Source of the DNA: an uncultured bacterium
GTDB taxonomy: Bacteria > Patescibacteriota > Saccharimonadia > Saccharimonadales > Saccharimonadaceae
Direction: 5' to 3'
DNA: 36,363 nucleotides
NCBI GenBank assembly: GCA_903866605.1
Contig: CAIPOF010000071.1
Coordinates: 1 to 36,363, forward strand
The notes under the pieces were generated by a model. That model did no database searches. It was not told where the DNA came from and saw only the letters and a program-made list of their open reading frames with translations. This document shows, one piece after another, positions 7,600 to 24,170 of this stretch (its first letter is position 1; every line of letters starts with the position of its first letter). A program made the translations under genes and the position numbers.

Positions 7600-7764
7600 G
7601 GGTCAGTAACTCAGCTGGTTAGAGCGTCTGCACACTTTCGGCAGATGTCGTGGGTGAGAACTGCCCAGAATGGCAGTTAGCAAGGCCGGAAGCCGGATGA
7701 CGAATGTCACCGACTGAGGCGGGGTCGCGGAATTTTCCAAAGGAAAATATCTATGACCAAGTCC
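7600..7764 (+). other. tRNA-Lys-like relic interrupted in the T-loop by a ~110-nt structured element
   Basis: gggtcagtaactcagctggttagagcgtctgc...gcagatgtcgtgggt matches the 5' part of tRNA-Lys at 7805 but has a 9-nt anticodon loop (acactttcg) and no normal T-loop. The inserted element recurs at 24171-24287. Confidence 0.7.
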
Positions 7765-7766
7765 TA
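7650..7766 (+). ncRNA. Structured RNA-like element, copy 1
   Basis: Near-identical to copy 2. Hairpins AACTGCC/GGCAGTT, CCGG/CCGG, TGAC-GAAT-GTCA, ATTTTCC-AAA-GGAAAAT, and closing pairing GTCGCGG/CTATGAC. Confidence 0.55.
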
Positions 7767-7804
7767 GGATTTGAACCCACAGTACTTTACAATGATTATC
7801 ACAT

Positions 7805-7881
7805 GGGCCAGTAACTCAGCTGGTTAGAGTGTCTGCCTCTTAAGCAGAATGTCGTGGGTTCAAGTCCCACCTGGCCCTCCA
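7805..7881 (+). tRNA. tRNA-Lys (anticodon CTT), CCA encoded
   Basis: GGGCCAG/CTGGCCC acceptor stem; TCTGC-CTCTTAA-GCAGA anticodon arm; GTGGG-TTCAAGT-CCCAC T-arm. Confidence 0.92.
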
Positions 7882-9566
7882 AAAGTGGATTCATATTCCA
7901 ACCCAATTCGAAACAGTCCGTTTATCTCTGGTAGCGGGCTGTTTTTTGGTGTTTCAAAATTTATTTCAGTGTAAGTTGGCGTGGAATTGAATAGAACTGC
8001 GAAAAAGGCGGCTTTCCGGAGTGGATTACTGAGCTCAAGTAGTATATCTGAGAGGTGTTTCAAAAGATATCTGGCGTATTCCAATACGAGGCTAATATTC
8101 ACTGTATTTTCGCCATTATTGGCTAACTGATCGTTTAGTTTTTTCATTTGTTTTTCTGCGCTCACGATATCTTCCTCCATGTATTTAATTGCCGTTTCAT
8201 TAGTTATGACCTTCATGCGATCTACAGTGACCCTAATTTGAGCCTCAAGAGCCTGTCGTTGTTCCACGAGTTTTTGGCTATCTTGTATTGTTTGTTCTTG
8301 CTGCGCACGCCAGGACTGCTCAATCATTTCTAAAAGCTTATCAATATGTTCTGGTGCGATCTCAATACTCTTAACGAAGCGCTCAATAGTCGCATCAAAC
8401 TCTGCTTGTGGCATACGGAAATAATGACCGTCACGACTACAGTGATAAGCAGGATAATATTTGCCGAGTTTGCCGCGTGCCGCACTCCCACTTAACGGTT
8501 TGCGGCAGTATGGGCAACCAATAACTTTCTTGTATGGAAACTTTGGATTCATCATTTGCTTCACAAGTTGCCACTCTTGCGGTTGTTTGTGACGTATCGT
8601 CACTTCGTTGTTGTTAGCTATTTCGATAACCAATTTGCCATGATTAGCTCGGTTGAATAGCTCCGTTGATACGAGTCCTTCAAACTGGGCTTTGACTGGC
8701 TTATCGTTTGTCCATTTACCCTTAATGATGCCTGCGTAGATTAAGTTGTGGGCGATTCTATCAATCATTTTGACGTCAATAAGTCGGCCACCGACAATAC
8801 GTTTAATTTTTGTGCGGTCGTATTTATCACGCACATAGGTAGTACGCGTTTTGAAGCCTAAACGATTCACTTCATCTGCGATTTCTTGTCCACTATAAAT
8901 ACCTTGAGTACGCATCTCAAAAATGCGCCTCACGAATACTGCTTCTTTAGGATGTGGTTTTAAAACGACACGTTTACCGTGGTTTGTATCAAGGGTTTCA
9001 CTTGTAAAGCCGTAGGGCGGTTGACGCATCCAATAGCCTAGTTGGGTGTAGCGGATTTCAGCGCCAATCATACGGGTCATAATGTCGCGCAGTTCATCTT
9101 TGGCGTGTTCAGCCTCTAGTATCTCGCTTTTAAACGAGGGGCTGTAATCGCTCCAATAGTAACTAAAGCCGGTGTGTTCAAGTGTATTGACCCTACGGCC
9201 GTCAATGATTCCAAAGGTATCAAGCAGACTAACGCCAAGTCCATCAAGTTGCTCTTTTAGTTTAATGTAGGCAACTGAACCGCCGCGAGTGAAGCGATCG
9301 ATGGCTTTAATCAATACAACTTCTATGCTCGGGTTGGCTCTGCAATGTTCGATGATCTCTTGCATCGGTTGCTCAACATGAGAGGCTGATTCAACCAAAA
9401 CGATAGTTTTAACAATCACGACGTTGTTATTGCGAGCAAGATTTTCGCCACGTTGGCGTTGCTCTTCTGGCGAATCACCGTCACGTTTCTGCTTACCAGA
9501 CGATACACGAACGGCCAGCAGGCCGACGCGCTGTTTAGTTGTGCTCGGTAACATCATCCACCCCAA
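7860..9566 (-). CDS. Large serine recombinase / site-specific integrase
   Basis: AVRVSSGKQKRDGDSPEEQRQRGENLA resolvase N-terminus, AIDRFTRGG, PPYGF..., recombinase domain, Zn ribbon (CPYCRKPLSG...YHCSRDGHYF) and coiled-coil tail. The C-terminus FGGPGGT* is encoded antisense to tRNA-Lys. Confidence 0.95.
   Translation of the reverse strand: MGWMMLPSTTKQRVGLLAVRVSSGKQKRDGDSPEEQRQRGENLARNNNVVIVKTIVLVESASHVEQPMQEIIEHCRANPSIEVVLIKAIDRFTRGGSVAYIKLKEQLDGLGVSLLDTFGIIDGRRVNTLEHTGFSYYWSDYSPSFKSEILEAEHAKDELRDIMTRMIGAEIRYTQLGYWMRQPPYGFTSETLDTNHGKRVVLKPHPKEAVFVRRIFEMRTQGIYSGQEIADEVNRLGFKTRTTYVRDKYDRTKIKRIVGGRLIDVKMIDRIAHNLIYAGIIKGKWTNDKPVKAQFEGLVSTELFNRANHGKLVIEIANNNEVTIRHKQPQEWQLVKQMMNPKFPYKKVIGCPYCRKPLSGSAARGKLGKYYPAYHCSRDGHYFRMPQAEFDATIERFVKSIEIAPEHIDKLLEMIEQSWRAQQEQTIQDSQKLVEQRQALEAQIRVTVDRMKVITNETAIKYMEEDIVSAEKQMKKLNDQLANNGENTVNISLVLEYARYLLKHLSDILLELSNPLRKAAFFAVLFNSTPTYTEINFETPKNSPLPEINGLFRIGLEYESTFGGPGGT
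7873..7883 (+). repeat. att-like core GGCCCTCCAAA (tRNA-Lys 3' end)
   Basis: Exact 11-mer shared with 21583, 22068, 22541, 24090 and 24291. Confidence 0.85.
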
Positions 9567-9726
9567 TGCCTAGAATATCAACTATCTTGCTACCGAAGCT
9601 TTGGTCTTCTACAATCCTCTCAACTATCAGGTCGGCAACGATTTTCATACGCTGTTCAAGCGTATATTCAAAAGCTCCTTCCGTGATAGGCTTTGGCTTG
9701 TTCTTCGACCCTATTCTTCTAGCCAT
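9535..9726 (-). CDS. Small protein overlapping the recombinase start (63 aa)
   Basis: MARRIGSKNKPKPITEGAFEYTLEQRMKIVADLIVERIVEDQ...; overlaps the recombinase start by 32 bp, suggesting translational coupling. Confidence 0.6.
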   Translation of the reverse strand: MARRIGSKNKPKPITEGAFEYTLEQRMKIVADLIVERIVEDQSFGSKIVDILGIGVDDVTEHN

Positions 9727-9750
9727 TTTGATACCCTTTAACTATGCTTT

Positions 9751-9783
9751 ATATGAATAGTATACCACCCAAATATGAATAGT
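9751..9783. promoter_or_regulatory. Putative operator: two direct repeats of ATATGAATAGT, 22 bp apart
   Basis: ATATGAATAGT at 9751-9761 and 9773-9783, upstream of the recombinase operon. Confidence 0.4.
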
Positions 9784-9963
9784 TGCAATAGTTTTTTGGC
9801 GTATTTTCGCATATTCCTGTGGAAAAGTATCCCCACTAACGAAAGGTGGTATTTCTCTTGTTTTCACCTCTGTTGACTCTTGCTTTTTACTCTCTTTTCA
9901 TTTATATATACATATAGTAACAAAAGTATCGTGGTGGGCACGGGAAGATGTACGTGTTTGCCT

Positions 9964-10767
9964 ATGAAAAACTATCAACCTAAATATAGATGGAAAATCT
10001 CAGAACAACAGAAAACTATACTAATCTACATTCATAAATTCAGATTTGTATCGACGGATATACTGGCAGAGATATTCGGAAAAGATAGATCAACTATTTA
10101 TGAAAGGTTGTCGGTACTCGAAAAGCAAAGATATATCTTGAAACAACATGATAGTAGCTATCGATTGAGACGACGACTGGCAACCTATTGTATTGCACCG
10201 CTTGGCATCAGGACGCTCAAAGATGATCCCAGAGTTGAACAAATATCACTCCGTCAGAGTTACAGAAACAGAAGTCTTACAGAAGAACAGATAGATGATT
10301 GTTTGCAAGCCGCGCAGATCTATCTTCACTTTCGTCGCCACTACCTAAAACAATTCGATTGTTTCACCAAATACCAGCTTGATCGCGATAAGTTCATTAG
10401 ACCAACCCCTATCCTCTCGATTCATGGCCAGACCGACAAAATACCAGATTACTTGGTGGATATCGTACCGGCGAGGCTACAGACCTGGATTATCAGGAAG
10501 CGTATTATTCAGCACGAAAACTTCGCCGAAAAATCCGAAAAATACTACCCGCACGTCCTCTTTATAGCCGGAAACAACAATACAGAGAAACGTATCGTCA
10601 GACTAACCGAGGAGCGCTATAACGATTTCAGTTTCTACACTACGACCATGGAGCGACTGCTAGGCGGTGATACGAAGAAGATTTGGCAGGACCCAGATGT
10701 TTTTTCAGAGTTAGAAGATAATGAGGAGCCAAAAAGAGCAACATTGTTACTTAGACTAGAGAAATAA
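9964..10767 (+). CDS. Winged-helix protein resembling the replication-relaxation family
   Basis: MKNYQPKYRWKISEQQKTILIYIHKFRFVSTDILAEIFGKDRSTIYERLSVLEKQRYILKQ. ATG at 9964 is a better start than the track start at 9880. Confidence 0.6.
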   Translation: MKNYQPKYRWKISEQQKTILIYIHKFRFVSTDILAEIFGKDRSTIYERLSVLEKQRYILKQHDSSYRLRRRLATYCIAPLGIRTLKDDPRVEQISLRQSYRNRSLTEEQIDDCLQAAQIYLHFRRHYLKQFDCFTKYQLDRDKFIRPTPILSIHGQTDKIPDYLVDIVPARLQTWIIRKRIIQHENFAEKSEKYYPHVLFIAGNNNTEKRIVRLTEERYNDFSFYTTTMERLLGGDTKKIWQDPDVFSELEDNEEPKRATLLLRLEK

Positions 10768-11028
10768 TGAGCGGTTTACTACAACTGAATTACTGCATAA
10801 AGAAGGCATTTCCGCAAAACTGTGGGAAAAGGGGCGATTAAGGTATAGTTTATTACCAGACTAGCTTCAATAGCAAGATTTGCCTGAAAAAGAATAAGAC
10901 AGGCGGAATCTTTTTATTGTTGGAATGTTGCGAACTGTAGCTTATAATAGAGTTTATAGCAAAGGCAGTAACGCTCGAATTGCAATAACAACAAAAACAT
11001 TATAAAATAGACTAAAAGGAGCTAGGAT

Positions 11029-11376
11029 ATGCGAAGAGTGACATACGAAGTAAGTAAAATGCTGCGATCGTTTGGCGTTGTTTTCGATACTTCAAAAAAT
11101 GAACAAATCGCAGAACTAAAAAAGGCACTCCGGTTACTAAAAAACTCGAGAATTGAATTCTATATTGAGCAATACCCCGATGGCACTTGGTCGGCGGAAT
11201 CAACCAACGTAGACGGCATTGCGACGGGTGGTGATGATCCTCGACTTATAAGTGACAGTCTAAAAGATGCCGTGATGACATATTACGAGATTCCGGCACT
11301 TTATTATGATTCAGTTAACTTACGTTCAGACAATGAACCTGTCACCGTACAGCAAAAGGTTCACGTCGGTGCCTAG
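11029..11376 (+). CDS. hicB: HicB-like antitoxin
   Basis: IEFYIEQYPDGTWSAESTNVDGIATGGDDPRLISDSLKDAVMTYYEIP resembles the HicB fold; overlapped by a HicA-like gene. Confidence 0.65.
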   Translation: MRRVTYEVSKMLRSFGVVFDTSKNEQIAELKKALRLLKNSRIEFYIEQYPDGTWSAESTNVDGIATGGDDPRLISDSLKDAVMTYYEIPALYYDSVNLRSDNEPVTVQQKVHVGA

Positions 11377-11602
11377 CATCACGTCGGCCAAACAAAAAGA
11401 CTGGATCAAAGCAGCCCGAAAACTCGGATTGGAAGTAAATAAAAAGGGTGGCAAAGGCAGCCACGTTTTGATAATCAATAGAGAATCAAGCAGTAAGTAC
11501 ACTATCCAAAAACATCTTTTCCCAATCGTAAATACAAAAATACTCAAAAAGTTTCTGGAATGGGGCTTCACGGAAGAAGAAATTCACGACTCGCTTAACT
11601 AG
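11369..11602 (+). CDS. hicA: HicA-like toxin (GTG start proposed at 11369)
   Basis: KDWIKAARKLGLEVNKKGGKGSHVLIINRE...YTIQKHLFPIVNTKILKKFLEWGFTEEEI; GTGCCTAG overlap with the hicB stop. Confidence 0.75.
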   Translation: MPSITSAKQKDWIKAARKLGLEVNKKGGKGSHVLIINRESSSKYTIQKHLFPIVNTKILKKFLEWGFTEEEIHDSLN

Positions 11603-11611
11603 TAACATTTG

Positions 11612-11655
11612 AGTTAGGTTACTAGGGAGAGCCTAACTCGGCATACTTTTTCGGT
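11612..11655 (+). terminator. Terminator-like hairpin after hicA
   Basis: GAGTTAGG ... CCTAACTC stem followed by ggcatacTTTTT. Confidence 0.5.
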
Positions 11656-11773
11656 AGCGATGGTTTAGGGCTAATACACGTAAGTTTTTTTATTGCCTCC
11701 GCATAACACTAATGTTATACTAATTCTAACTAAGGATGATTTATAATAATTATGAGTACTAAAACAATAAATT

Positions 11774-12940
11774 ATGAAAAAGCAACTCTCTCTCTCTAAT
11801 AAGTTAAAAAATCCTATTTCACTGAAGTTTAGTAGGACAAGTCGTAGGACTGACCCTAACAAACTCGGTTTTACGATCGTCGAACTTTTAGTTGTTATTG
11901 TTGTCATCGGTATACTAGCTGCCATAACTATAGTCTCCTTTACTGGCATCTCCCAAAAAGCCACAGTAGCCTCAATTCAATCAGATCTATCTAACGCTAA
12001 AAAACAACTACAATTGTATTATACCGAATACGGTTATTATCCAGCCGCTCCACTAAGTAATAATTGCCCAGCTGCACCATCAATTGTTGACAATAGATAT
12101 TGCCTCAAGACAAGTCCTGGCAATACCTTTACCTCCTATACATCTGACGGTACAACCTTTAGTCTGGAAGCAACTAATACCAATGGTATGGTCTATAACG
12201 TAACTGACAATACTGGACCAACTGCTGGTGCAATAATCACCGGTTCGCCATACATCCAAACCATCACTGCAGCTAACTGCCCATCAACTCGTACCCAAGT
12301 TCAGGATGCCCGTGATGGTCACACCTACTGGGTTCAAAAACTAGCTGACGGTAAATGCTGGATGCTGACTAACCTTGGTTACGCTGGTGGTGGCACTAAT
12401 ACCTACAGTGACACAAAAACTCTAACTAACGCTCCTGGGTCAACCTACACAGCAGCGGGCTATTATACGCCTACAGGTTCCAATATCACCACCGAACCAA
12501 ACGCTCCTAGCACTTCAACTGACGGCACTGGTCAATACGGCTATCTATACAACTGGTGTGCCGCTACAGGCGGTGATCTAGCTAGCTCTGGCTGCTCAAG
12601 TACCATAACCACTCCACTACCAGTTACTACAGCATCAATCTGTCCCTCTGGTTGGCGTTTGCCAACCAGCAATGGCGGTGAATTCACCGCGCTCAACACA
12701 GCCATTAATAGCGGTTTAACCAGCACCGACGCCGGCTTAATCGGCGCTTCTTGGCTCGCGCAGCGAGGTGGCTACTGGGATTTTGGGTTTTACGATCAGG
12801 GTAGCTACGGCTACTACTGGTCGTCTACCCAGTACTCAGCCACTGTCGCCTACTACCTTAGATTCGGCAGCACTTACGTTAACCCGGTCAATCTCAGCAG
12901 TAAGAACGGCGGTTTTGCGGTGCGGTGTGTAGCGGTTTAG
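11774..12940 (+). CDS. Prepilin-like protein with FISUMP-type C-terminal domain
   Basis: LGFTIVELLVVIVVIGILAAITIVSFTG prepilin segment; DARDGHTYWVQKLADGKCWMLTNL ... CPSGWRLPT ... GYYWSSTQYSATVAYYLRFGSTYVNP...GGFAVRCV FISUMP motif. Confidence 0.88.
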   Translation: MKKQLSLSNKLKNPISLKFSRTSRRTDPNKLGFTIVELLVVIVVIGILAAITIVSFTGISQKATVASIQSDLSNAKKQLQLYYTEYGYYPAAPLSNNCPAAPSIVDNRYCLKTSPGNTFTSYTSDGTTFSLEATNTNGMVYNVTDNTGPTAGAIITGSPYIQTITAANCPSTRTQVQDARDGHTYWVQKLADGKCWMLTNLGYAGGGTNTYSDTKTLTNAPGSTYTAAGYYTPTGSNITTEPNAPSTSTDGTGQYGYLYNWCAATGGDLASSGCSSTITTPLPVTTASICPSGWRLPTSNGGEFTALNTAINSGLTSTDAGLIGASWLAQRGGYWDFGFYDQGSYGYYWSSTQYSATVAYYLRFGSTYVNPVNLSSKNGGFAVRCVAV

Positions 12941-12975
12941 CCTTACCCCTAGATTTGAATGAATAAGAATTTGAA

Positions 12976-13035
12976 AGCAGTCTAATCAGGAAGCTACCCG
13001 TCCTTTAGGGCGAGTAGCTGACAGATTAGACTGCT
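12976..13035. repeat. 60-nt nested inverted repeat
   Basis: AGCAGTCTAATC (12976-12987) pairs with GATTAGACTGCT (13024-13035); an inner AGCTAC...GTAGCT stem is capped by CGTCC-TTTA-GGGCG. Confidence 0.85.
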
Positions 13036-13062
13036 AAGTAACGAACAAATAAGGCGAAATTT

Positions 13063-13782
13063 ATGGATGAAGACAAAAGTTACGAAAAACTAAAAACAGT
13101 GCCTGACCACATTCGGTATGAATTTACCAATCAAGATTCAATTGCGCTAAGAAAAAACGGGGTATACTATAAAGCCGTCGGTAATTCGGCGATTATGTTA
13201 AAAATTCTGGGCGCTAAAACCAAGATTCGTTCAAATTTCAACACTTTTTACGAACAAGAAGTATTAGAAATGAGTCTGCACGGCAGCAAGTTTGACGAAA
13301 TTAAAAATTATTTGCAAACACTTAGTTCAAAAACCCTGCGCGATGACAATTTGTTCTATATCATCCGGTTAAAATCACCGATTAACGCTAAAAGAATTAA
13401 ACGTGCCCGTGCTAGCGGCGATTTGCGTACAGAAGTTACCGAAGACATTTTGTTGAAACGACGGCACAGTACGCCTTTATCAAAAGAAGTTAGGGGGATT
13501 TTTAAAGAAGTGGGTTTACTGGTTAGCGCGATGAAAAGCCAAGATGGTCAGGTGTTAGGCCTTGCGCTATTGAACGAGGTAATCGATTTGCAGCGGGCGG
13601 TACGCGTTTTGACGCGAACCGAAACGCCGTCAGGCAAATTAAAATTGGCGGTTGATGATGCTGCCGACGATTTGTTAGGTACGTTGCTGTTAGTATCTAA
13701 TTTTGTCGAGCAAGCGACCAGGTTGGCAAGGATTGGCAGAAGCATCAACACGATCACAGTTACCCCAATAGCGAAAGACTGA
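13063..13782 (+). CDS. Hypothetical; possible MutS-like (MSL) + Avd-like four-helix-bundle DGR accessory protein
   Basis: N-terminal SIALRKNGVYYKAVGNSAIMLKILGAK resembles MutS domain I. C-terminal helical region VLGLALLNEVIDLQRAVRVLTRTETPSGKLKLAVDDAADDLLGTLLLVSNFVEQATRLA is Avd-like. Sits directly after the FISUMP gene. Confidence 0.4.
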   Translation: MDEDKSYEKLKTVPDHIRYEFTNQDSIALRKNGVYYKAVGNSAIMLKILGAKTKIRSNFNTFYEQEVLEMSLHGSKFDEIKNYLQTLSSKTLRDDNLFYIIRLKSPINAKRIKRARASGDLRTEVTEDILLKRRHSTPLSKEVRGIFKEVGLLVSAMKSQDGQVLGLALLNEVIDLQRAVRVLTRTETPSGKLKLAVDDAADDLLGTLLLVSNFVEQATRLARIGRSINTITVTPIAKD

Positions 13783-14015
13783 ACATCAAGTGAAAAATCA
13801 AGATAGTGATAATTTGATACCAGTTTGCCGAGGATGATACCAGTAGTAATTATTGTAACTAGCAAAACTGCCGAACCATTATCGCTGTCTCGACTATCAT
13901 TTTTTGATTTCGTATATACAAACAAAAAGTCGCAAATTGCCCAGATGAAGATTAAAATTAATAAAATATTATCTGACACCTTACTAACATAGGCTTTTGT
14001 CGCCTTTGTGGTCAA
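13548..14015 (-). CDS. Hypothetical membrane protein, convergently overlapping the preceding CDS
   Basis: Three hydrophobic helices (ILLILIFIWAICDFLFVY; AVLLVTIITTGIILGKLV; FAIGVTVIVLMLLPILANLV), the third inside the overlap. Confidence 0.45.
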   Translation of the reverse strand: MTTKATKAYVSKVSDNILLILIFIWAICDFLFVYTKSKNDSRDSDNGSAVLLVTIITTGIILGKLVSNYHYLDFSLDVQSFAIGVTVIVLMLLPILANLVACSTKLDTNSNVPNKSSAASSTANFNLPDGVSVRVKTRTARCKSITSFNSARPNT

Positions 14016-14133
14016 GCTTATATGGGGTCGTTAAATTGATGAACAGTCATTTTTATGTTAAAATTACCAAGACCTTTTAAAGGTGTAATGCCCTGTTAAC
14101 CGGTAGCTCTTTGACAAGAGAGAGGTTTTCGAA

Positions 14134-15468
14134 ATGCAAAAGAAAATGGTACTTTTGATTTCGCCCGACGCGCACATGCACAAGTTCGTTATCGGCTCGT
14201 TCGTCAAGTCGTCAAGAGAAGCACCGCTTACTCTGACAACACTGGCCGCGATGGTCCCTGAGGACAGGTTCGACGTACGGATTGTGGATGGCAGTATCGA
14301 TACAATTCCGCTCGACTATCCGGCCGACTTGGTCGGAATCAGCACGCTCACGGGCACTTGCCTGCAGGCTTACGAGCTTGCGGAACACTATAGAAACAGG
14401 GGAATCCCTGTGGTGCTCGGTGGTGTACACGCTACGATCATGCCGGAGGAGGCGAAGCAGCACGCTGACAGCGTCCTCATCGGTATGGCTGAAGAATCGT
14501 GGCCTCAGCTTCTCCAGGATTTTCTGGACGGAGACCTGAAGCCTGTTTACGAGGCAATCGAACCTGAAGGAGACACACTCCTGAACGTTCCAACGCCTCG
14601 TCTCGATCTGATGCGCCGTAGCGGCTACATGCTGCCGGATACAATTCAAGCTACAAGAGGCTGCAAGCACGACTGCGATTTCTGCTCGGTGCCGACGGTT
14701 TGGTCGAAGTACTACAAAAGGCCGATCGCCGACGTCATCAGAGATATCAAGAATGCCCCAGGCACTTACTTGGCCTTCAACGACGTCAGCATCATCGAGG
14801 ATGTCGACTACGCCAAGGAACTCTTCACGGCTATGATCCCACTGAAGGTGAAGTGGGGAGGTCTTTCGACCACCCTCATCACGAAGGATCAGGAGCTGAT
14901 GGAGCTCGCCGCCAAGAGCGGCTGCATCTACATGCTTCTGGGGTTCGAGTCGGCAAGCCAGATGACACTCAAGAGTATCGCCAAGGGCTTCAACAAGAAG
15001 GACGACTACCACAAGGTCATGCAATGCATGCATGACTACGGCATCTCTGTACAGGGGTGCTTTGTTTTCGGCTTTGACGAAGACGATCAATCTGCCTTCC
15101 AGCAGACGGTCGATTGGGTCAACGAGCTCAAGGTCGACATCCCTAGGTACTCGATCTATACCCCTTATCCCTGTACGAGACTGTTCAAGAGGCTCGAGGG
15201 TGAGGGGAGGATCCTTACCTACAATTGGGGTAACTACGACACGATGCACGTTGTCTACCAGCCCACCCAGTTGACGCCACATGAGCTATTCGATGGTTTC
15301 AAGTGGGCGTACAAGCAAACGTTCTCTGCTGGTAGCATCGGCCGACGCATATTCTTCCAGAAGCTGGGAGCGCGCAGCGTCGTCAACCTGGCTGGGAACG
15401 TGACCTATCGGATATTCGTTCATCGCCTTTACAAAGATGAGCGTTTTGTACTTCCGATGATGCCGTAA
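14134..15468 (+). CDS. B12-binding-domain radical SAM protein
   Basis: Cobalamin-binding-like N-terminus (ADLVGISTLTGT...GGVHATIMPEEA) and RGCKHDCDFCSVP [4Fe-4S] motif. Confidence 0.92.
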   Translation: MQKKMVLLISPDAHMHKFVIGSFVKSSREAPLTLTTLAAMVPEDRFDVRIVDGSIDTIPLDYPADLVGISTLTGTCLQAYELAEHYRNRGIPVVLGGVHATIMPEEAKQHADSVLIGMAEESWPQLLQDFLDGDLKPVYEAIEPEGDTLLNVPTPRLDLMRRSGYMLPDTIQATRGCKHDCDFCSVPTVWSKYYKRPIADVIRDIKNAPGTYLAFNDVSIIEDVDYAKELFTAMIPLKVKWGGLSTTLITKDQELMELAAKSGCIYMLLGFESASQMTLKSIAKGFNKKDDYHKVMQCMHDYGISVQGCFVFGFDEDDQSAFQQTVDWVNELKVDIPRYSIYTPYPCTRLFKRLEGEGRILTYNWGNYDTMHVVYQPTQLTPHELFDGFKWAYKQTFSAGSIGRRIFFQKLGARSVVNLAGNVTYRIFVHRLYKDERFVLPMMP

Positions 15469-15480
15469 CGCAAGGAGACT

Positions 15481-16809
15481 TTGATGCACATCACTCTGGT
15501 TTTGCCGTCCGTTGGGCGGAAAGGCAAGAAGTACATCAAGACCTGGACGATGGAACCGCTAGCGATAGCAGTTCTGGCCAGTCTGACTCCAGCCGATGTC
15601 AAGATTACTTTCTTTGACGATCGGCTCGAGGATGTGGATTACGACGCTCCGACCGACCTGGTTGGTATAAGTGTCGAGTCCTACACCTCGAAAAGAGCCT
15701 ACGAGATCGCGGCTGAGTATCACAAGCGTGGCGTACCCGTCGTAATGGGGGGTTACCACGCTACACTGGTACCCGAAGAAGTACAGAACCATGCAGAGGC
15801 TACGGTCATCGGCGACGCCGAGCCAGTTTGGGCTCAGGTGGTCGATGATGCAAAGAATGGCCGGCTCAAGAAGGTCTATCGGGCGGAGCGTCAGACGCTT
15901 TCGTCCGAGATGACAATTCCTGACAGAAGTATCTATGCCGATAAGAAGTATCTGGGCATAACACTTCTGGAGACCGGTCGTGGATGCAAGTTCCACTGCG
16001 AGTTCTGCTCTGTCACCGCGTTCTACGAAGGCGACTATCGTCGCAAGTCTGTAGACCTGATCGTCGAAGAGATTCGGGCGACCGGGAGCAAGCAGGTCTT
16101 CTTCGTCGATGACAACATCATCGGCGACGTCGAGTCCGCGAAGGAGCTTTTCACTGCACTGATCCCGCTGAACATCAAGTGGGTTACACAGTGCAGTCTG
16201 AATGCCGTCAAGGACCGAGAGCTTCTTGACCTCATGGTCAAAAGTGGTTGTGTCGGCATTCTGGTCGGTTTCGAGTCGATCGCAAAAGATAACCTCGTGC
16301 AAATGCACAAGGGGCAAAACAACGGCGCCAAGGACTATTCCGGCGCGCTTGCTCAGCTTCGTCAAAGAGGCGTGGTGATCTATGCGACGTTCGTATTCGG
16401 CTACGACAACGATGACGCCGGCCTCATCCAGAGAACGGTGGATTTTTGTCGGGAAGAAAAGATCTTCATCGCCGCCTTCAACCACTTGGTTCCCTTTCCC
16501 GGGACACCTTTGTATGGACGGCTGAAGAGCGAAGACAAGCTACTCATCGAGAAGTGGTGGCTTGACCCTGACTACCAGTACGGCGACATCAGCTTCTATC
16601 CGAAGTCGGTGTCACCCGATGAACTGACACGGCTATGCCTAGTAGCTAGGAACGAGTTCTACGGAGTTCGCTCGATTATCGAGAGAAGTCTCGATTTCCA
16701 CGCGAACTCCAAGAGTCCGAAATGGCTCTTCTTGTTCCTTCTGGCTAACTTCATGCTCCGCAAGGAAGTCATGGAGAAGAGGAGCTTGATGCTGGGTAGT
16801 GAGTCCTGA
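15481..16809 (+). CDS. B12-binding-domain radical SAM protein (paralogue)
   Basis: TDLVGISVESYTS...GGYHATLVPEEV and RGCKFHCEFCSVT. Confidence 0.92.
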   Translation: MMHITLVLPSVGRKGKKYIKTWTMEPLAIAVLASLTPADVKITFFDDRLEDVDYDAPTDLVGISVESYTSKRAYEIAAEYHKRGVPVVMGGYHATLVPEEVQNHAEATVIGDAEPVWAQVVDDAKNGRLKKVYRAERQTLSSEMTIPDRSIYADKKYLGITLLETGRGCKFHCEFCSVTAFYEGDYRRKSVDLIVEEIRATGSKQVFFVDDNIIGDVESAKELFTALIPLNIKWVTQCSLNAVKDRELLDLMVKSGCVGILVGFESIAKDNLVQMHKGQNNGAKDYSGALAQLRQRGVVIYATFVFGYDNDDAGLIQRTVDFCREEKIFIAAFNHLVPFPGTPLYGRLKSEDKLLIEKWWLDPDYQYGDISFYPKSVSPDELTRLCLVARNEFYGVRSIIERSLDFHANSKSPKWLFLFLLANFMLRKEVMEKRSLMLGSES

Positions 16810-16821
16810 AGGGGGGGTAAG

Positions 16822-17922
16822 ATGGGACGCTATGAAATCGGCCTGGCAACACCCGAGGAAGATGAACAGCTTATGGCCATTCAGGCCATGCCGATGGAGG
16901 GATCAATCAAGATTTCCTACCAGAGGCAGCCGAGCATATTCACTTCCATCGGTTTGCTGGGGCATCACAGCGACATCATGGTCATGCGAGACACCAAGAA
17001 GGACCAGATCGCTGGTTTTGGCGTACGGTCCATCAAAAGGGCCTACGTCAACGGAGAGCTGTCTGATGTAGGCTATCTAAACGGCCTCCGTTCACGCGAA
17101 GAGTACCGTGGTTCGGTGTTATTGGCTCGTGCGTATAGGTATCTTCGTGAGCTGCACGACCAGTCACCAATGCCGATGTACTTTACGACCATTATCGAGG
17201 GTAACGAAGTCGCACTGTCCGCCTTAACAGGCGGCAAGGCAGGGCTTCCTCGCTACCAAGATATTGGAAGATATACAACCTATGCGCTGAAGGCGTCTCG
17301 TGGTCACAGTCGTGATCATGGGATCACCATCGTCAAGGGCTGTAGTGATCGGCTCCCTGAAATCGTAGAGTTCTTAAATCAAGAGAGCTCACGCTTTCAG
17401 TTCGGCGCCCATTACGACACCCTGGAACTACAAGAAAGCGCGCAATATCGCGGCCTATCGATGGACGACGTTTACGTCGCCTACGACAATGGCTCGTGCG
17501 TAGGAGTTTTGGCAGTGTGGGACCAGAACTTCTGCAAGCAGAACGTTGTCAGTGGGTATGCCGACAGAACCAATAAGTACCGCCGGGTTTACAACTTGGT
17601 GGCGCGAATTGGTCAAAACCCTCAACTTCCACCGGTGGGCGCAAAGATCTCCCTCAGCTATATTGCCATGCTGGCGGTTCAGGATGATGATAAAGTCGTC
17701 TTCGAATCACTGCTTGACAAAGTCCGGGGGTCTAACCGCAATCGGGGGAATGACTATGTGCTAGTCGGAATGCATGAGGATAATCCTCTGTCGTCCGTGC
17801 TTCAAAAACTCCATCCGATTACCTACCATAGCCGTTTTTTCACGGTCTTTTGGGAGGATGGTCGGCAGTTTTACGAAGCGCTTGACGGGAGGACTCCGCA
17901 TGTCGAAGTCTCAAGCATGTAA
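16822..17922 (+). CDS. GNAT-like acyltransferase family protein
   Basis: MGRYEIGLATPEEDEQLMAIQAMPMEGSIKISYQRQPS...DVGYLNGLRSREEYRGSVLLARAYRYLRELH; GNAT-like N-terminal half; coupled to upstream genes. Confidence 0.6.
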   Translation: MGRYEIGLATPEEDEQLMAIQAMPMEGSIKISYQRQPSIFTSIGLLGHHSDIMVMRDTKKDQIAGFGVRSIKRAYVNGELSDVGYLNGLRSREEYRGSVLLARAYRYLRELHDQSPMPMYFTTIIEGNEVALSALTGGKAGLPRYQDIGRYTTYALKASRGHSRDHGITIVKGCSDRLPEIVEFLNQESSRFQFGAHYDTLELQESAQYRGLSMDDVYVAYDNGSCVGVLAVWDQNFCKQNVVSGYADRTNKYRRVYNLVARIGQNPQLPPVGAKISLSYIAMLAVQDDDKVVFESLLDKVRGSNRNRGNDYVLVGMHEDNPLSSVLQKLHPITYHSRFFTVFWEDGRQFYEALDGRTPHVEVSSM

Positions 17923-17934
17923 GCGAGGTGGAAG

Positions 17935-18651
17935 GTGAACAAGCTAACGGGGCGTATCATCCCTATTTCGGAACTCTCTCAAGGGGATACCGTCACGATG
18001 TGGCGGTTGATGCAACGGTTCTACAAGCATGTCAGTTGGGCCATCTTCACGAAAGATTTGGCAGAGAAGGATTCTGTCATTTTGCTTCGTGAAGTGGCCA
18101 CGGGCGACATCAAGGGCTTCTCGACGACGATGATTATCCAGACTGAGGTCGATGGCGTACAAATCGCCGCCGTCTTCTCTGGGGACACTATCATCGACAA
18201 GGAATTCTGGGGTGAGCTGGTTTTGGCCAAGCTCATGATCCAGTACCAACTCGAAGTTCTCGAGAGGTTCCAAGACCGAAACGTCTACTGGTTCCTGATT
18301 TCAAAGGGATACAAGACGTATCGGTATCTGCCGCTGTACTTCTGCAAGTTCTACCCGAGTTACTGCGAAGACACCCCTGCTTTCGAGCAGAGTGTCATCA
18401 ATGAGCTCTCTAGGCTGAAGTTCGGTGACTGCTACGACGAATCGAGAGGTTTGATCGTTTTCGATGAACCCTCGGAATGTCTGAGGCCCGACGTTGCCCA
18501 GATTGATGACAAGTCGATGAAGAACCCTCATGTCCAGTACTTCGCCAAGAAGAACCCTGGACATCGTGAAGGTGACGAATTAGCGTGTCTGGCTCGAATC
18601 GCGCCGGACAACTTCAATCGGGCGTTCCTAAGGACGGTGAAGCAAGAATGA
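17935..18651 (+). CDS. Hypothetical protein, possibly acyltransferase-fold (GTG start)
   Basis: 238 aa in the operon; GTG at 17935 preceded by gaggtggaag. Confidence 0.6.
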   Translation: MNKLTGRIIPISELSQGDTVTMWRLMQRFYKHVSWAIFTKDLAEKDSVILLREVATGDIKGFSTTMIIQTEVDGVQIAAVFSGDTIIDKEFWGELVLAKLMIQYQLEVLERFQDRNVYWFLISKGYKTYRYLPLYFCKFYPSYCEDTPAFEQSVINELSRLKFGDCYDESRGLIVFDEPSECLRPDVAQIDDKSMKNPHVQYFAKKNPGHREGDELACLARIAPDNFNRAFLRTVKQE

Positions 18652-20354
18652 AACGAGCGGGAATTCTCCTAGCTAACGTTATCTGGATTGCTTCCTGCTT
18701 TTCGGGCTGGTTGCTTTTCAGACTTGCCAGTCTTTTTCCTGGAAAGATTCAGGAAAACGTTCTGCGCAAGATCTTAGGGCTGAATCAGGAAACTGAGTTC
18801 GGCCGAAACCACAATTTCGACAGGATCAAGAGCATTTCGGATTTTCGTCGATTAGTTCCGGTCGGGGACTACGGTTCTCACAAGAACTACATCACGGAGA
18901 TCATGGGCGGTAAAGAGAACGTGTTGGTCGGCGAAGATATTCAGGTGTTGATGCCAACCAGCGGTTCTACTGGGGGTGTTAAGTACATTCCCTACACCGC
19001 TTCGCTCCAACGTCAGTTCCGTGCTGGAATCTCTCCGTGGCTGTTTTCGCTATACCTTCGGAATCCAAGGCTCTTTCTGGGCACTGCCTACTGGTCAATC
19101 ACACCGGCGGGAAGTAAACAGGAGGAAACACCTTCTGGAATCCAAGTCGGTTACCAAAGCGACGGAGAGTATCTGGGCAAGACTGCCCAGCTGGTTCTAA
19201 ACGCCGTTATGAACGCTCCAAGCGAAATCGGACAAATCTCGGAAATGGATAACGTGTTCTACGCGACGCTACTATTCCTACTCCGAGACAAAGACCTTGC
19301 ACTGATTTCGGTCTGGAGCCCGACGTTCCTTACGGTGCTTCTTGATCGATTTACAGAGTGGGGAGGGTCAATTGTAGCCGACATCGAGTCTGGCACAGTT
19401 AACCTCCCCATCAAAGGAGATCAAGCAGTTGCCGAGAAACTGAAGGCAAAGACTTTCCCTGATCCAAAACGGGCAAGTGAAATTCGGACTAGGACATCAG
19501 TCTCTGGCCGAAAAATGGAGTGGACATTACTATGGCCCAAACTAAGAGTAATAAGCTGTTGGGCCGACGGAAGCTCCGAGAACTATTTGCCCGGGTTGCA
19601 ATCACGTTTTCCAACGGTCTCAATACAACCCAAAGGCCTGTTGTCAACAGAGGGGATAGTTTCTTTCCCTCTCTGCGATGAGCCTGGTGCGGTACCGTCT
19701 ATCAGATCCCATTTCTACGAGTTCTTAGAAGTCGGAACCAGCGCGGTTCCAAAACTTCTGATTGAGCTCGAGGTCGATGGGATATATGAGGTGGTACTGA
19801 CCACTAGTGGGGGACTGTATCGTTACCGAACAAGCGATCTCGTTGAGGTCGTAGATATTCGGCGCGGTATTCCCAGACTAAGGTTTGTTGGACGAATCGG
19901 CAACGTCTCTGACCTGTTCGGTGAGAAACTTCACGAAGAACAGATTATTGAGGCGATGTCGGCTATAACTGTTCGGCAAAGGTCAAGACTGTCCTTCTGG
20001 ATGGTTGCGCCTGATAAAGAGTGCTCAGGGGAAACCCACTACACCCTCTTTATCAAGCCGGCAGATCCTGACGGTACAGACGGATGCCGTGAGATTGCTG
20101 ACGAACTCGAACGCAGTCTTCTCGTTAATCCCCACTACAAGTATGCGAGAGAGCTTGGCCAGCTCTCGAGCCTACGTGCTGTTCTAGTCGAAGAAGACTA
20201 TCTTCGACGCTACACCGAAGGGTGTGTCCAACTGGGCCAGAGACTCGGGGACGTCAAGTTGACGTTTCTGAGGAAAGAATTCGGCTGGACGGAAAGGTTC
20301 CAGGAACCAATCACAACTGAGTCCGCAGTGTCCTCACCCCGACGCTGCACATAG
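18648..20354 (+). CDS. GH3-family acyl-acid amido synthetase-like protein
   Basis: MPTSGSTGGVKYIPYT adenylation motif, TEFGRNHNFDRIKSISDFRRLVPVGDY, EGIVSFPL, GLYRYRTSDLVEVV, FVGRIGNVSDLFGEKLHE. ATGA overlap puts the start at 18648 rather than 18585. Confidence 0.85.
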   Translation: MKRAGILLANVIWIASCFSGWLLFRLASLFPGKIQENVLRKILGLNQETEFGRNHNFDRIKSISDFRRLVPVGDYGSHKNYITEIMGGKENVLVGEDIQVLMPTSGSTGGVKYIPYTASLQRQFRAGISPWLFSLYLRNPRLFLGTAYWSITPAGSKQEETPSGIQVGYQSDGEYLGKTAQLVLNAVMNAPSEIGQISEMDNVFYATLLFLLRDKDLALISVWSPTFLTVLLDRFTEWGGSIVADIESGTVNLPIKGDQAVAEKLKAKTFPDPKRASEIRTRTSVSGRKMEWTLLWPKLRVISCWADGSSENYLPGLQSRFPTVSIQPKGLLSTEGIVSFPLCDEPGAVPSIRSHFYEFLEVGTSAVPKLLIELEVDGIYEVVLTTSGGLYRYRTSDLVEVVDIRRGIPRLRFVGRIGNVSDLFGEKLHEEQIIEAMSAITVRQRSRLSFWMVAPDKECSGETHYTLFIKPADPDGTDGCREIADELERSLLVNPHYKYARELGQLSSLRAVLVEEDYLRRYTEGCVQLGQRLGDVKLTFLRKEFGWTERFQEPITTESAVSSPRRCT

Positions 20355-20392
20355 CCTCCGACGCTGCAAAGCGTCGGAGGCTCTACTTTTTT
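20353..20392 (+). terminator. Rho-independent terminator of the GC-rich operon
   Basis: Perfect 13-bp stem AGCCTCCGACGCT-GCAA-AGCGTCGGAGGCT with GNRA tetraloop, then ctacTTTTTT. Confidence 0.93.
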
Positions 20393-20578
20393 GTGGATTA
20401 ACCTAGTGTTCTTGCCGTTGGATTATCGGCTCAGGGTATGACCTAAGCAAGGCTATAACTTCGTCAACCACAGCGTACTAAATCGACATTATAAAAAATC
20501 ACTCTTTGAACTCGGTTCTAATATTTTAGACACAAGTCTCTACTGTAAACTTTTCAAAAGCGGTATAATATATTCAAT

Positions 20579-20791
20579 ATGTCATCCAAGCTAAGCAGTT
20601 ACATTGGTCGCCAGCTCCAGCTAGCGCGACAAAAGAAAGGGCTCACACAAGCTGAGGTTGCAGGGCATGCAGGCACAACTGTCAATCACTACGCCAAGAT
20701 TGAGCGTGGCGAAGTAGTGCCATCACTTAAAACGTTAGAGAAGATAGTCAAAGCTCTCGGTGTGAAGTCGTCGGACGTTTTGTCTTTTTAG
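20579..20791 (+). CDS. XRE-family helix-turn-helix regulator
   Basis: IGRQLQLARQKKGLTQAEVAGHAGTTVNHYAKIERGEVVPSLKTLEKIVKALGV. Confidence 0.93.
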   Translation: MSSKLSSYIGRQLQLARQKKGLTQAEVAGHAGTTVNHYAKIERGEVVPSLKTLEKIVKALGVKSSDVLSF

Positions 20792-21015
20792 TCTTTTGGT
20801 GACTGGTTGTATTGATCGATAAACTTTTCAAAATCCAGCTTGGATGAGTCAGCCATAGTCTTGGCGACACTTTGCATTCGCTTCAGTAATCCAATCGCAT
20901 ATTCGCGATTAGCATTGTTTGGATCTTTGTATTTCAAATAATTGATAGTCTTCTCAATAACCCCTTCATTTTCTGCGAGGTTGCGGTCATTGAAATCAGT
21001 ATTTTCGTCTAGCAT
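20788..21015 (-). CDS. Hypothetical protein (75 aa)
   Basis: Overlaps the end of the PLD-like gene in an operon-like arrangement. Confidence 0.5.
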   Translation of the reverse strand: MLDENTDFNDRNLAENEGVIEKTINYLKYKDPNNANREYAIGLLKRMQSVAKTMADSSKLDFEKFIDQYNQSPKD

Positions 21016-21448
21016 ATTTCTTCACGCCAATAAAATTAATCAGTATCTTGGCTTCTACGGATGATACCACTCTTCTCATTATCTCACAACTGTTACTGAA
21101 TGATAGGAAGTTGAGGCTACCCTCATAAAACACTTCTCGGTCAAGGATGACCAGTTTACGGTGATGGTTAGTGGTATAAAGAACCGTGATGCCTAAATCT
21201 TGCATCACCTCAATAGCATTTAGTGCTTGATGGTAGTAATCGCCATCGTGTTCTATAGGATTGCGTGTATTCACGATGATAGTAACGTTACGTTTCCGTA
21301 AGCTAGCTAAAATAGGCAACAGGGCGTTCGTGCGTCTCGTAGTGATAAATGGACTTTCTATGATTAACTCTTGCTTGCAGTACTTCAAATCGCGTTCAAA
21401 AGCATCATAAAACGTATTCTGGTCGTAGAGTTGGGAGGATTTAAACAT
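20996..21448 (-). CDS. Phospholipase D-like domain protein
   Basis: QELIIESPFITTRRTNALLPILASLRKRNVTIIVNTRNP...HHRKLVILDREVFYEGSLNFLS (HxK-type motif). ATG at 21448 couples to the upstream TAA. Confidence 0.7.
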   Translation of the reverse strand: MFKSSQLYDQNTFYDAFERDLKYCKQELIIESPFITTRRTNALLPILASLRKRNVTIIVNTRNPIEHDGDYYHQALNAIEVMQDLGITVLYTTNHHRKLVILDREVFYEGSLNFLSFSNSCEIMRRVVSSVEAKILINFIGVKKYARRKY

Positions 21449-21581
21449 CTTTCTCCTCCAAATCAGCAAGGTAAACTTCGCCGTTTCGGTATTCTACGCC
21501 TAGTTCAACCAGTTTGGTGTATAGGGATATTAAATCATCAATCAACTTATGTGTAGTTTGGTGTTTCAGAAAAGTATACGC
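21441..21581 (-). pseudogene. 46-codon 3' ORF fragment truncated at an att-like core; predicted C-terminal extension of the recombinase in the circular form
   Basis: AYTFLKHQTTHKLIDDLISLYTKLVELGVEYRNGEVYLADLEEKDV* directly follows TTT GGA GGG CCA (FGGP), in the same frame as the recombinase FGGP at 7872-7883. Confidence 0.55.
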
Positions 21582-21582
21582 T

Positions 21583-21593
21583 GGCCCTCCAAA
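21583..21593 (+). repeat. att-like core GGCCCTCCAAA
   Basis: Exact 11-mer; shares 13 bp (CTGGCCCTCCAAA) with the tRNA-Lys site. Confidence 0.85.
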
Positions 21594-21605
21594 CCGGTTA
21601 TGCTT

Positions 21606-21635
21606 AAAACAGAGATATAATATCTCTGTTTTTTT
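21606..21635 (+). terminator. Terminator directly after core
   Basis: AACAGAGATA-TAA-TATCTCTGTT then T-run. Confidence 0.9.
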
Positions 21636-21649
21636 GTTACAATCTATGT

Positions 21650-22048
21650 ATGGACATACTGAAACAAGTATCGACTCTAAGATTACCATCAGGACAATAT
21701 GCAATTTTTGGTAGCGGGCCAATGGCGTTACATGGAATAAGAGAATCACGTGATATTGATTTGATAGTTACAACTAATCTATATAATGAGTTACATCGTT
21801 CAGGATGGCAAGAAGAAGGAAGCGGGAGCAAAAAACATTTAGTAAGAGATAATATTGAAATATTTAGTAGTTGGGATTTTGATAACTATCATCCAATTCC
21901 CAAACAATTGATTAATGAAGCAGAAATAATAGATGGCGTAGCCGTTGTTCAATTGTCTGAAGTTATGAAATGGAAAAATGCATTTGGTAGAGAAAAAGAT
22001 TTAGCGGATATTAAACTAATTCAGGATTATTTACTGACCGAAAAATAG
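21650..22048 (+). CDS. Nucleotidyltransferase-like cassette protein (132 aa)
   Basis: YAIFGSGPMALHGIRESRDIDLIVTTNLYNEL...VVQLSEVMKWKNAFGREKDLADIKLIQDYL; GSG..A..G.R...DID.. pattern. Confidence 0.7.
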   Translation: MDILKQVSTLRLPSGQYAIFGSGPMALHGIRESRDIDLIVTTNLYNELHRSGWQEEGSGSKKHLVRDNIEIFSSWDFDNYHPIPKQLINEAEIIDGVAVVQLSEVMKWKNAFGREKDLADIKLIQDYLLTEK

Positions 22049-22078
22049 TTCCAATAGACTCTACTACGGCCCTCCAAA
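22045..22078 (+). repeat. att-like site: ATAGTTCCAATAG-N10-GGCCCTCCAAA
   Basis: Same arm and same 23-nt spacing to the core as at 22518 and 24067. Confidence 0.85.
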
Positions 22079-22090
22079 TTGGTTATGCTT

Positions 22091-22119
22091 AAAACAGAGA
22101 TGATTTGTCTCTGTTTTTT
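22091..22119 (+). terminator. Terminator directly after core
   Basis: AAACAGAGA-TGATTTG-TCTCTGTTTTTT. Confidence 0.85.
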
Positions 22120-22177
22120 GTTAGCAATTTGAGCTCAATTTGTGGTATTGTGTAGATACATATAATAAGGAGCAAAC

Positions 22178-22480
22178 ATGGGTACTGATGGCGAAAATGG
22201 AGTATATGATTGGCAAAAGGAAGGCGATATTGTTGGCGAACCTCAAAAGTTGCCAGAGTTAGAAGAATCTGTTGAAACTTTCGAATCAAAAATAGATGCG
22301 ATGCTTACCAATTGCGTTAATAATCCTGACTATAGTGATTGGCCAAGCGACTATACTGAAGCAGTAAACACTTGGGGCTTGGAATGTTCGGAAGACGATG
22401 TCTATAGTTCTCTTAAAAGACTAGCGGCACAAGGTGTAATTGAATGGAAAGTTGATCATTACGAACCTAAAACAAACTAA
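22178..22480 (+). CDS. Hypothetical cassette protein (100 aa, acidic)
   Basis: aaGGAGcaaac SD-like sequence upstream of ATG; sole ORF between two cores. Confidence 0.65.
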   Translation: MGTDGENGVYDWQKEGDIVGEPQKLPELEESVETFESKIDAMLTNCVNNPDYSDWPSDYTEAVNTWGLECSEDDVYSSLKRLAAQGVIEWKVDHYEPKTN

Positions 22481-22517
22481 AGCTAATCAATTTAACTCAA
22501 TCGAAAAGTTGCGGACT

Positions 22518-22551
22518 ATAGTTCCAATAGCCAACAATATGGCCCTCCAAA
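22518..22551 (+). repeat. att-like site: ATAGTTCCAATAG-N10-GGCCCTCCAAA
   Basis: Shared arm and core. Confidence 0.85.
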
Positions 22552-22562
22552 CTAGTTTTGAT

Positions 22563-22590
22563 TAAAAAAGACCTTTTCTAAGGCCTTTTT
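22563..22590 (+). terminator. Terminator directly after core
   Basis: AAAAAAGACCTT-TTCT-AAGGCCTTTTT. Confidence 0.8.
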
Positions 22591-22604
22591 GTTATTATAG
22601 GATA

Positions 22605-23081
22605 GTGCAAAATATAATTAAATACAGGTCATATCAAACCTCTAATTTCCAAGACTTATTAGAATTTTTGTCTACTGTAGAAAAAGATTTTTATCCACCG
22701 CTATCAAAACGAACTACTTTAAGAAATTATTTACTAAGTGATCTAGTAGAAAATAGCTATACTTATTTAGCTTTATGCAATGATTCAATAATTGGGTTTA
22801 TTAATCTTCAAATTAATGAACCAGCAAAAAATGATACTAATATAAATACTGTTGCCATTCACCCAAAATTTAGAAAAATGGGGATTGCTACACAATTAAT
22901 GGGGAATGTAATTAATTTTGCCAAGACTAATGGCTTTGGATGTATAAAAACAAGAACCTGGTCCATAAATAATTCTGGACTTGGATTATATAAGAAGTTT
23001 GGATTCGAAGTAGATTACATAGTAAAAAATGATAGAGAAAATAATGTTGACAGCATTTATTTAGTCAATAAATTCACTTGA
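22605..23081 (+). CDS. GNAT family N-acetyltransferase (GTG start)
   Basis: SIIGFINLQINEPAKNDTNINTVAIHPKFRKMGIATQLMGNVINFAKTNGFGCIKTRTWSINNSGLGLYKKFGFE. Confidence 0.88.
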   Translation: MQNIIKYRSYQTSNFQDLLEFLSTVEKDFYPPLSKRTTLRNYLLSDLVENSYTYLALCNDSIIGFINLQINEPAKNDTNINTVAIHPKFRKMGIATQLMGNVINFAKTNGFGCIKTRTWSINNSGLGLYKKFGFEVDYIVKNDRENNVDSIYLVNKFT

Positions 23082-23157
23082 TATCTAGTTGAGATTAGCT
23101 TGATGATTGCTCTCCATCTTATTTTTGCTAATATATATGGTTGAGTTATAATAAAAA

Positions 23158-24009
23158 TTGATGACTTGGTTCTATTACACTTTACTTGCTGTTTTTTCAT
23201 ACTCTTTATACTACCTTTTCTCAAGAGTTTTTTTGAAATCTAAAGACAGCAACGTAGTCACTTATGCGATTTTATTTAATTTTGTATGTGCAACAATTTT
23301 AACGGTTTTAGCTGTTAGCAGGGGATTCGAATCATTAGACATTAAGAAATATGCCCCTAATCTTATATTAATGGCTATATTGTACGCTGCTGCTCAAATA
23401 TTAATTTTCAAAGCTTCCAAATTGATTGAAGCTTCAGAATTGATAATTCTATCCGCGACTCGTGTATTGTGGACAATTGCTGGGGCTATGTTACTGCTGG
23501 GGGAAAGTTTTAACCTACAAAAAGCAGTTGGAGTATTTTTAATAATTTTTGCAGTTATATTTGTATCCTACAAGAAAAAACGCATGAAGCTAAATTGTGG
23601 CCATTGGTATGCAATACTGGCTGGATTTTGTTTAGGTATAGGTTTTGTTAATGATGCATATATACTTCAACATTCTGATGCAATGTCATACGGAGCAATA
23701 GTTTTTATATTGCCTTTGGTTTTAACGTTAATTGTCTATTCTTCGTCTTTGAATAAATTAAAAAAAGAAGTTACTGTAAAGTTGCTTTTCAAAAACTTGT
23801 TGCTGGGTGTTGTCTATTCAATCGGTGTTATTTCTTCATATCTTGCATATCAGAACGGGGGCAATGCGTCACAAATTGTTCCTATAGGACAATCAGTAGT
23901 AATCATAACCGTTATTTTAGCTGCGATTTTTTTGGGTGAGAGAAACAGTTTGCTTAAAAAGTTTGTAGCCGCTGGGTTTGTTACTATAGGTGTCTTTCTA
24001 ATTAAATAA
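23158..24009 (+). CDS. EamA/DMT-family transporter
   Basis: About ten hydrophobic segments; terminal VPIGQSVVIITVILAAIFLGERNSLLKKFVAAGFVTIGVFLI. Confidence 0.85.
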   Translation: MMTWFYYTLLAVFSYSLYYLFSRVFLKSKDSNVVTYAILFNFVCATILTVLAVSRGFESLDIKKYAPNLILMAILYAAAQILIFKASKLIEASELIILSATRVLWTIAGAMLLLGESFNLQKAVGVFLIIFAVIFVSYKKKRMKLNCGHWYAILAGFCLGIGFVNDAYILQHSDAMSYGAIVFILPLVLTLIVYSSSLNKLKKEVTVKLLFKNLLLGVVYSIGVISSYLAYQNGGNASQIVPIGQSVVIITVILAAIFLGERNSLLKKFVAAGFVTIGVFLIK

Positions 24010-24066
24010 CACAACCGATACTGTCTACATAGTTATTTAATATATTGCCTTCGATTATCATGAGAC

Positions 24067-24138: not shown

Positions 24139-24170
24139 AAGTGCTCAGTTGAACCTTGAATCCTCGACTG

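Follow-up and report, generated by a model that had tools for sequence, protein, structure and literature searches.

In the streptococcal rumA ICEs and IMEs, a single serine integrase carries att in its own gene, and the 3′ part of this gene is swapped on integration (PMC4701971). In the myxophage Mx8, attP lies in int, and integration gives int a new 3′ end and an altered activity (PMC6070905); the Mx8 integrase is of the tyrosine family (PMC4701971). The archaeal suicidal integrases of SSV, pTN3, and pT26-2 also have att within the integrase gene (PMC8371274). In the integration-dependent immunity of mycobacteriophages, a regulatory protein acquires a different C-terminus on integration (PMC4557955, PMC8092301), and ICEKp1 has a state-dependent switch of integrase transcription (PMC13023037). 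Large serine recombinases (LSRs) that use tRNA genes, as in mycobacterial AICEs (tRNA-Leu) and phage RSM1 (tRNA-Ser), were described as rare in 2011 (PMC3218068), and Islander knew of no serine recombinases using tRNA genes (PMC4383910). In CIME accretion, recombinase-less segments between att sites are stacked beside an integrated element (PMC5704250).

Here, we analyzed a stretch of 36,363 bp (the window), corresponding to contig C71 in the 814-kb genome G000, whose named relatives are mostly Candidatus Saccharibacteria. It very probably contains a Patescibacteria LSR element whose attP overlies the 3′ end of the recombinase gene and whose C-terminal tail and PLD gene are exchanged at tRNA 3′ ends. 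This reading draws on the geometry, codon phase, naturally joined forms, selection on the tail, and motif spacing, as read from DNA. A C-terminal swap on integration is already known from Mx8 and the rumA ICEs, and the tRNA-targeting form is a variant, for which the streptococcal rumA ICEs with serine integrases are the closest precedent. Both have an LSR with att in its own gene and a C-terminus changed by integration. However, the rumA ICEs target a protein gene and exchange 3′ ends with frame changes, whereas here the targets are tRNA 3′ ends, and a conserved in-phase tail module is followed by PLD. Mx8 likewise has attP in the integrase gene, but without a reported tRNA T-arm rule or PLD operon. 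The archaeal suicidal integrases are tyrosine recombinases split into inactive halves, whereas here the catalytic and DNA-binding domains remain whole, and in mycobacteriophage immunity the altered protein is instead a repressor. While mycobacterial AICEs and RSM1 use one tRNA per group, the Patescibacteria family uses 10 tRNA families. In the open-access literature, we found no paper describing this LSR family.

The recombinase gene and its tRNA-Lys target

The recombinase gene runs antisense to tRNA-Lys(CTT), and its ORF terminates inside the tRNA as ESTFGGP-GGT-stop. Two copies of a 13-bp block (minus strand, TTTGGAGGGCCAG) are located at 7871-7883 and 21581-21593, with a spacing of 13,710 bp. 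The features of the element are as follows.

7805-7881, plus strand: tRNA-Lys(CTT), the target gene, intact after integration (ARAGORN, Rfam RF00005)
7860-9566, minus strand: large serine recombinase, short integrated form (PF00239, PF07508, phrog_95 integrase)
7871-7883, minus strand: attL core TTTGGAGGGCCAG, at the tRNA-Lys 3′ end and within the recombinase ORF
7945-7956, minus strand: R1 motif TGAAACACCAAA, which repeats R2 in direct orientation and lies 75 bp upstream of the core TGG
9535-9726, minus strand: 63-aa ORF overlapping the recombinase start, possible accessory factor
9880-10767, plus strand: divergent winged-helix/Replication-relaxation-like protein (weak PF13814, PF13730)
11029-20354, plus strand: cargo, comprising a HicA-like ORF, a prepilin-type protein, two B12-binding radical SAM proteins, a GH3-family protein, and others
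20579-20791, plus strand: HTH_3 regulator (PF01381)
20788-21015, minus strand: 75-aa ORF 3′ of PLD, with a homologue at the same place in G071
20996-21448, minus strand: PLD-like protein with one HKD motif (PF13091; weak Zucchini/MitoPLD match)
21441-21581, minus strand: detached recombinase C-terminal tail, an in-phase open frame of 46 codons plus stop
21557-21568, minus strand: R2 motif TGAAACACCAAA, at +23 from the core TGG
21581-21593, minus strand: attR core of the recombinase element (site S1), the second copy of TTTGGAGGGCCAG

In the recombinase, the Resolvase catalytic domain (PF00239) is followed by the Recombinase domain (PF07508), both above the cut-off, and the PDB match is the TP901-1 integrase catalytic domain. 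The zinc-ribbon residues C337, C340, C362, and H367 are invariant, and in the AF2 model of the G073 homologue the architecture is that usual for recombinases, with an inserted pair of long helices (422-501), the feature taken to mark the coiled-coil. By its predicted domains, zinc-ribbon residues, and coiled-coil, the protein is classed as an LSR. The 63-aa ORF at 9535-9726 had no Pfam or PHROG match. In five relatives, tRNA-Lys is uninterrupted and adjoins the same flank gene, representing the empty site. The regenerated tRNA 3′ end, the matching far core, and the empty site in relatives indicate that the window element is a tRNA-targeting integrative element.

In G374 and G071, too, the winged-helix/Replication-relaxation-like gene and the recombinase are divergent, and in G071 an HTH gene equivalent to the 20579-20791 regulator adjoins the PLD operon. 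No T4SS gene was recognized on the window element, and it is not classed as an integrative and conjugative element. The cargo operon at 14134-20354, containing the two B12-binding radical SAM proteins and the GH3-family protein, is possibly a small biosynthetic cluster. At 7600-7780, a degenerate tRNA-like 5′ half is located 205 bp upstream of tRNA-Lys, together with a T-arm-like fragment. A REP-like repeat (CCGGAAGCCGGATGACGAATGTCACCGACTGAGGCGGGGTCGC...), for which no match was found in Rfam, lies beside tRNA fragments at 7690-7750 and ~24200 of the window and also in L046 and L027.

From 21593, the minus-strand frame reads FGGP and then AYTFLKHQTTHKLIDDLISLYTKLVELGVEYRNGEVYLADLEEKDV up to a stop at 21443-21441, giving 46 codons in the recombinase codon phase. 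The ATG of the PLD gene (21448-21446) overlaps the tail stop, and GGAGG is located just 5′ of the ATG. The preliminary description held that two cores 13,710 bp apart join the recombinase in frame to these 46 codons, and both the coordinates and the phase were confirmed. As judged from the core within the ORF and the in-frame alternative C-terminus, the recombinase falls among integrases of the Mx8/rumA type, whose C-terminus is altered by integration. A nuclease role of the PLD protein is a guess, because it is suggested by one HKD motif and a weak Zucchini/MitoPLD match.

We propose that, in the circle, attP would straddle the last recombinase codons, giving a long recombinase with a tail of ~32-49 residues, followed by the PLD gene in one operon. 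Integration would recombine attP with the tRNA 3′ end, the common core being the complement of the tRNA CCA end. The tRNA would be kept intact, a few antisense-tRNA codons would replace the tail, and the tail and PLD would be relocated to the far end, where a host or cassette terminator precedes them. Since the insertion site would lie inside the recombinase gene, each insertion would remove the tail and disconnect the next gene. Excision would restore the long recombinase and the PLD operon, as had been predicted earlier, and the geometry is consistent with this. The tail may aid integration or block excision in the circle, and PLD may be active mainly in the circular stage.

Tails and joined forms in relatives

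A recombinase search of 150 related genomes gave a match in 35, and a scan of GTDB contigs added 80 further named loci (Saccharibacteria, Levybacteria, Shapirobacteria, Roizmanbacteria, WWE3, and others). Of the 90 distinct loci across Patescibacteria that have a complete C-terminus, 75 show the 3′ end of the recombinase gene entering a tRNA 3′ end in antisense, and the tRNA targets of these 75 loci span 10 amino-acid families. On the recombinase tree, at least 15 changes of target were counted versus a shuffled mean of 33, showing that tRNA targets are inherited yet repeatedly switched. Homologues at L091 and L095 were binned as Micrarchaeota and Chitinophagales, probably through binning errors or transfers. 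Scans of IMG/VR with recombinase and PLD profiles detected no relatives, and plasmid and phage collections gave none or merely weak Marinitoga matches.

In relatives whose contig reaches the far end, a tail ORF is found there in the recombinase phase, usually with the PLD gene next. Far sites were located in nine relatives by DNA alone (core 6-mer plus R2). At all nine, the recombinase phase was the longest open phase (32-49 codons), a count that is inflated by kinship; the window and G071 were in agreement. At the window cassette sites, which have the same core and no recombinase upstream, the recombinase phase was open for just 4-11 codons. The 9/9 phase test and these short frames indicate that the in-phase tail is not due to chance.

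Unbroken recombinase-tail-PLD arrangements without a tRNA were found in three contigs, G073:C6 (MGCS01000006.1), G374:C5, and G374:C11, all from MAGs. G115:C91 is a frameshifted joined example, and partial joined examples were found in G283:C6, G196:C1, and G234:C3. Circle closure was tried for G073:C6, G105:C1, G374:C5, and G374:C11, and none closed. The use of MAG data and the lack of a closed circle would fit an origin of the joined contigs and in-phase att sites in chance or assembly artefacts. We consider such an origin extremely improbable in view of the 9/9 phase test and of the three full-length examples, which come from two genomes and have differing tails like those that occur as orphans elsewhere. 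The 28.6-kb contig G073:C6 (L035/L036) appears to be an ICE- or plasmid-like relative; by eye, its ORFs include VirB4/VirD4-like (T4SS-like) proteins, cytochrome bd, a copper ATPase, and Dsb/VKOR proteins.

These data bear on the preliminary description in several ways. Its placement of attP within the recombinase 3′ end is supported by the core position, the far-end tails of relatives, and the joined forms. Its proposal that integration trims the C-terminus and detaches the PLD operon agrees with the tail/PLD geometry at the far ends of relatives. It would have been contradicted by homologues that never carry the tail, and homologues were found to have it, some as part of the recombinase and others at the far att site. 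As for the episomal homologues that it called for, three contigs have the intact long recombinase, but none was closed as a circle. The targeting of tRNAs throughout the family, the +23/+18 spacing of the motifs, and the cassettes past 21593 were not part of that description.

We also evaluated selection on the tail. The dN/dS values were mostly 0.03-0.2 in 13 pairs (0.20 for the window versus L053), and the pooled pN was 0.085 versus a pS of 0.374. Past codon 12 (codons 13 on), the window and L053 gave a dN of 0.14 and a dS of 2.2. These substitution patterns indicate that the tail is under purifying selection as a functional protein segment. In the AF2 model of the G073 protein, the tail is a helix-hairpin predicted with modest confidence. 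R2, a DNA-level motif, overlaps conserved tail residues such as WN, and tail conservation could in that case be a by-product of constraints on attP DNA (R2 and half-sites) rather than of protein function. This explanation is highly improbable, since purifying selection extends past the att part in the window/L053 comparison, and the cassette sites have core and R2 yet no open tail.

A second alternative is that the tail has no role in recombination. The overlap with attP would then reflect compactness, the frame would be kept for translational coupling, and the switch would control PLD. The tail stop does overlap or shortly precede the PLD start across loci, and the dN/dS values of the tail are silent on which function is selected. 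However, some elements (G059 and G018) have a tail without a detectable PLD, a point in favour of a role of the tail in the recombinase itself, and the amino-acid conservation exceeds what coupling needs. We therefore regard coupling alone as rather unlikely.

One version of the main proposal is a self-limiting integrase, in which full activity would require the tail, and integration, by removing it, would lower activity and lock the element in place. Such behaviour was reported for Mx8 and proposed for the rumA ICEs (PMC4701971, PMC6070905), and the tail is joined to the recombinase in the circular form only; in Mx8, however, activity is modified, not abolished, by integration. We hold this version to be a real possibility, although the balance is somewhat against it.

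A second tail type (WLGIRDDYRTL..., TGG phase 0, R2 = AGAACTT or CAAACTT) was observed upstream of PLD genes at L216 (G000:C29:10.7 kb), L217 (G050), and L179-L206. On inspection of L216 and L217, the stretch up to the next tRNA-Gln contained no recombinase, a finding that counts against the main proposal.

Motif spacing and the T-arm

Offsets were counted from the T of the core TGG (= 0), TGG being the complement of the tRNA CCA; phase and offset were left out for ~12 loci without TGG at the called tRNA end. R2 (TGGAAC-like) starts exactly at +23 in nearly all attP/attR sites examined. At PLD loci, the core TGG occurs in all three codon phases (16, 24, and 13 loci), and the R2 spacing is therefore attributable to a constraint on DNA. 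Core and R2 were found upstream of 53 of 70 PLD genes, compared with 14 of 847 control windows. In attB, the complement of the universal tRNA T-arm, TCGAAC, begins at +18. Because this offset is set by fixed tRNA geometry, only the match to R2 and the spacing are informative.

In the LI serine integrase, the zinc-domain motif of attB is located 5 bp closer to the centre than that of attP (PMC3783163). The same 5-bp attP/attB shift is present here, suggesting that the T-arm is probably read by the zinc domain of the recombinase. What is new relative to known systems, as far as site sequences tell, is this motif rule of +23 (attP) and +18 (attB) in a tRNA-targeting LSR family.

R1, located in the recombinase gene at -74/-75, fits the R2 of its own element better than that of other elements, with 0 of 20,000 permutations as good; common ancestry and relatedness contribute to this covariation. 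A left-half mirror of R2 was also sought, and the conserved T at -31/-30 is more simply explained by codon constraint.

Cassettes and integration state

Beyond 21593, the tRNA-proximal element is followed by an array with the following features.

21592-22076, plus strand: cassette C1, terminator hairpin and 132-aa ORF (21650-22048), closed by S2 with R2 TGGAAC at +23
22077-22549, plus strand: cassette C2, 100-aa ORF (22178-22480), closed by S3 with R2 TGGAAC
22550-24098, plus strand: cassette C3, GNAT (22605-23081) and EamA transporter (23158-24009), closed by S4 with R2 CGCAAC
24099-24299, no strand assigned: outer flank, with a native-like tRNA-Lys 3′ flank, REP-like repeat, and an extra tRNA-Lys 3′ fragment

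Extra cores at 22076, 22549, and 24098, each with R2 at +23, delimit three units (485, 473, and 1,549 bp). Each of C1-C3 opens with its own hairpin after CCA and contains one or two genes in the direction of the tRNA. The sequence outside 24098 is similar to the native tRNA-Lys flank of L163, an uninterrupted site, and 24098-24299 was rejected as a fourth cassette on account of this match. G071:C17 (L054) has a similar array, in which the recombinase element occupies the middle. Homologues of the C1 protein elsewhere were not bounded by core and R2 sites, and C2 had no relative in 343 genomes. From their sites, C1-C3 are candidate non-autonomous cassettes that may be mobilized in trans by the recombinase and accumulate at the tRNA. 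Since an attB-type half is present only at the tRNA-proximal site, new units should enter there, as in integrons. Compared with CIMEs, these are one- or two-gene units of 0.5-1.5 kb with their own terminators, nearer to integron cassettes in size. They are not an integron; the recombinase is serine-type and the sites consist of core plus R2, and the likeness is one of cassette logic only.

A broader reading, which we offer tentatively and consider doubtful, is that of an integron-like serine system. T-arm reading would give access to many tRNAs, cassettes with core and R2 would be captured tRNA-proximally, and loss of the tail would sense integration, set direction, and turn PLD off. Sensing of the integration state would follow because integration would remove the direction-setting tail and switch off PLD.

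The choice of direction by serine integrases is not yet explained, and this family provides natural long/short pairs produced from one gene via integration. T-arm reading, if true, would explain how one LSR family moves among tRNA genes and would offer integration tools with a site found in every genome. Mobile elements of Patescibacteria have received little study, and the family adds to them a system of integrating elements and cassettes.
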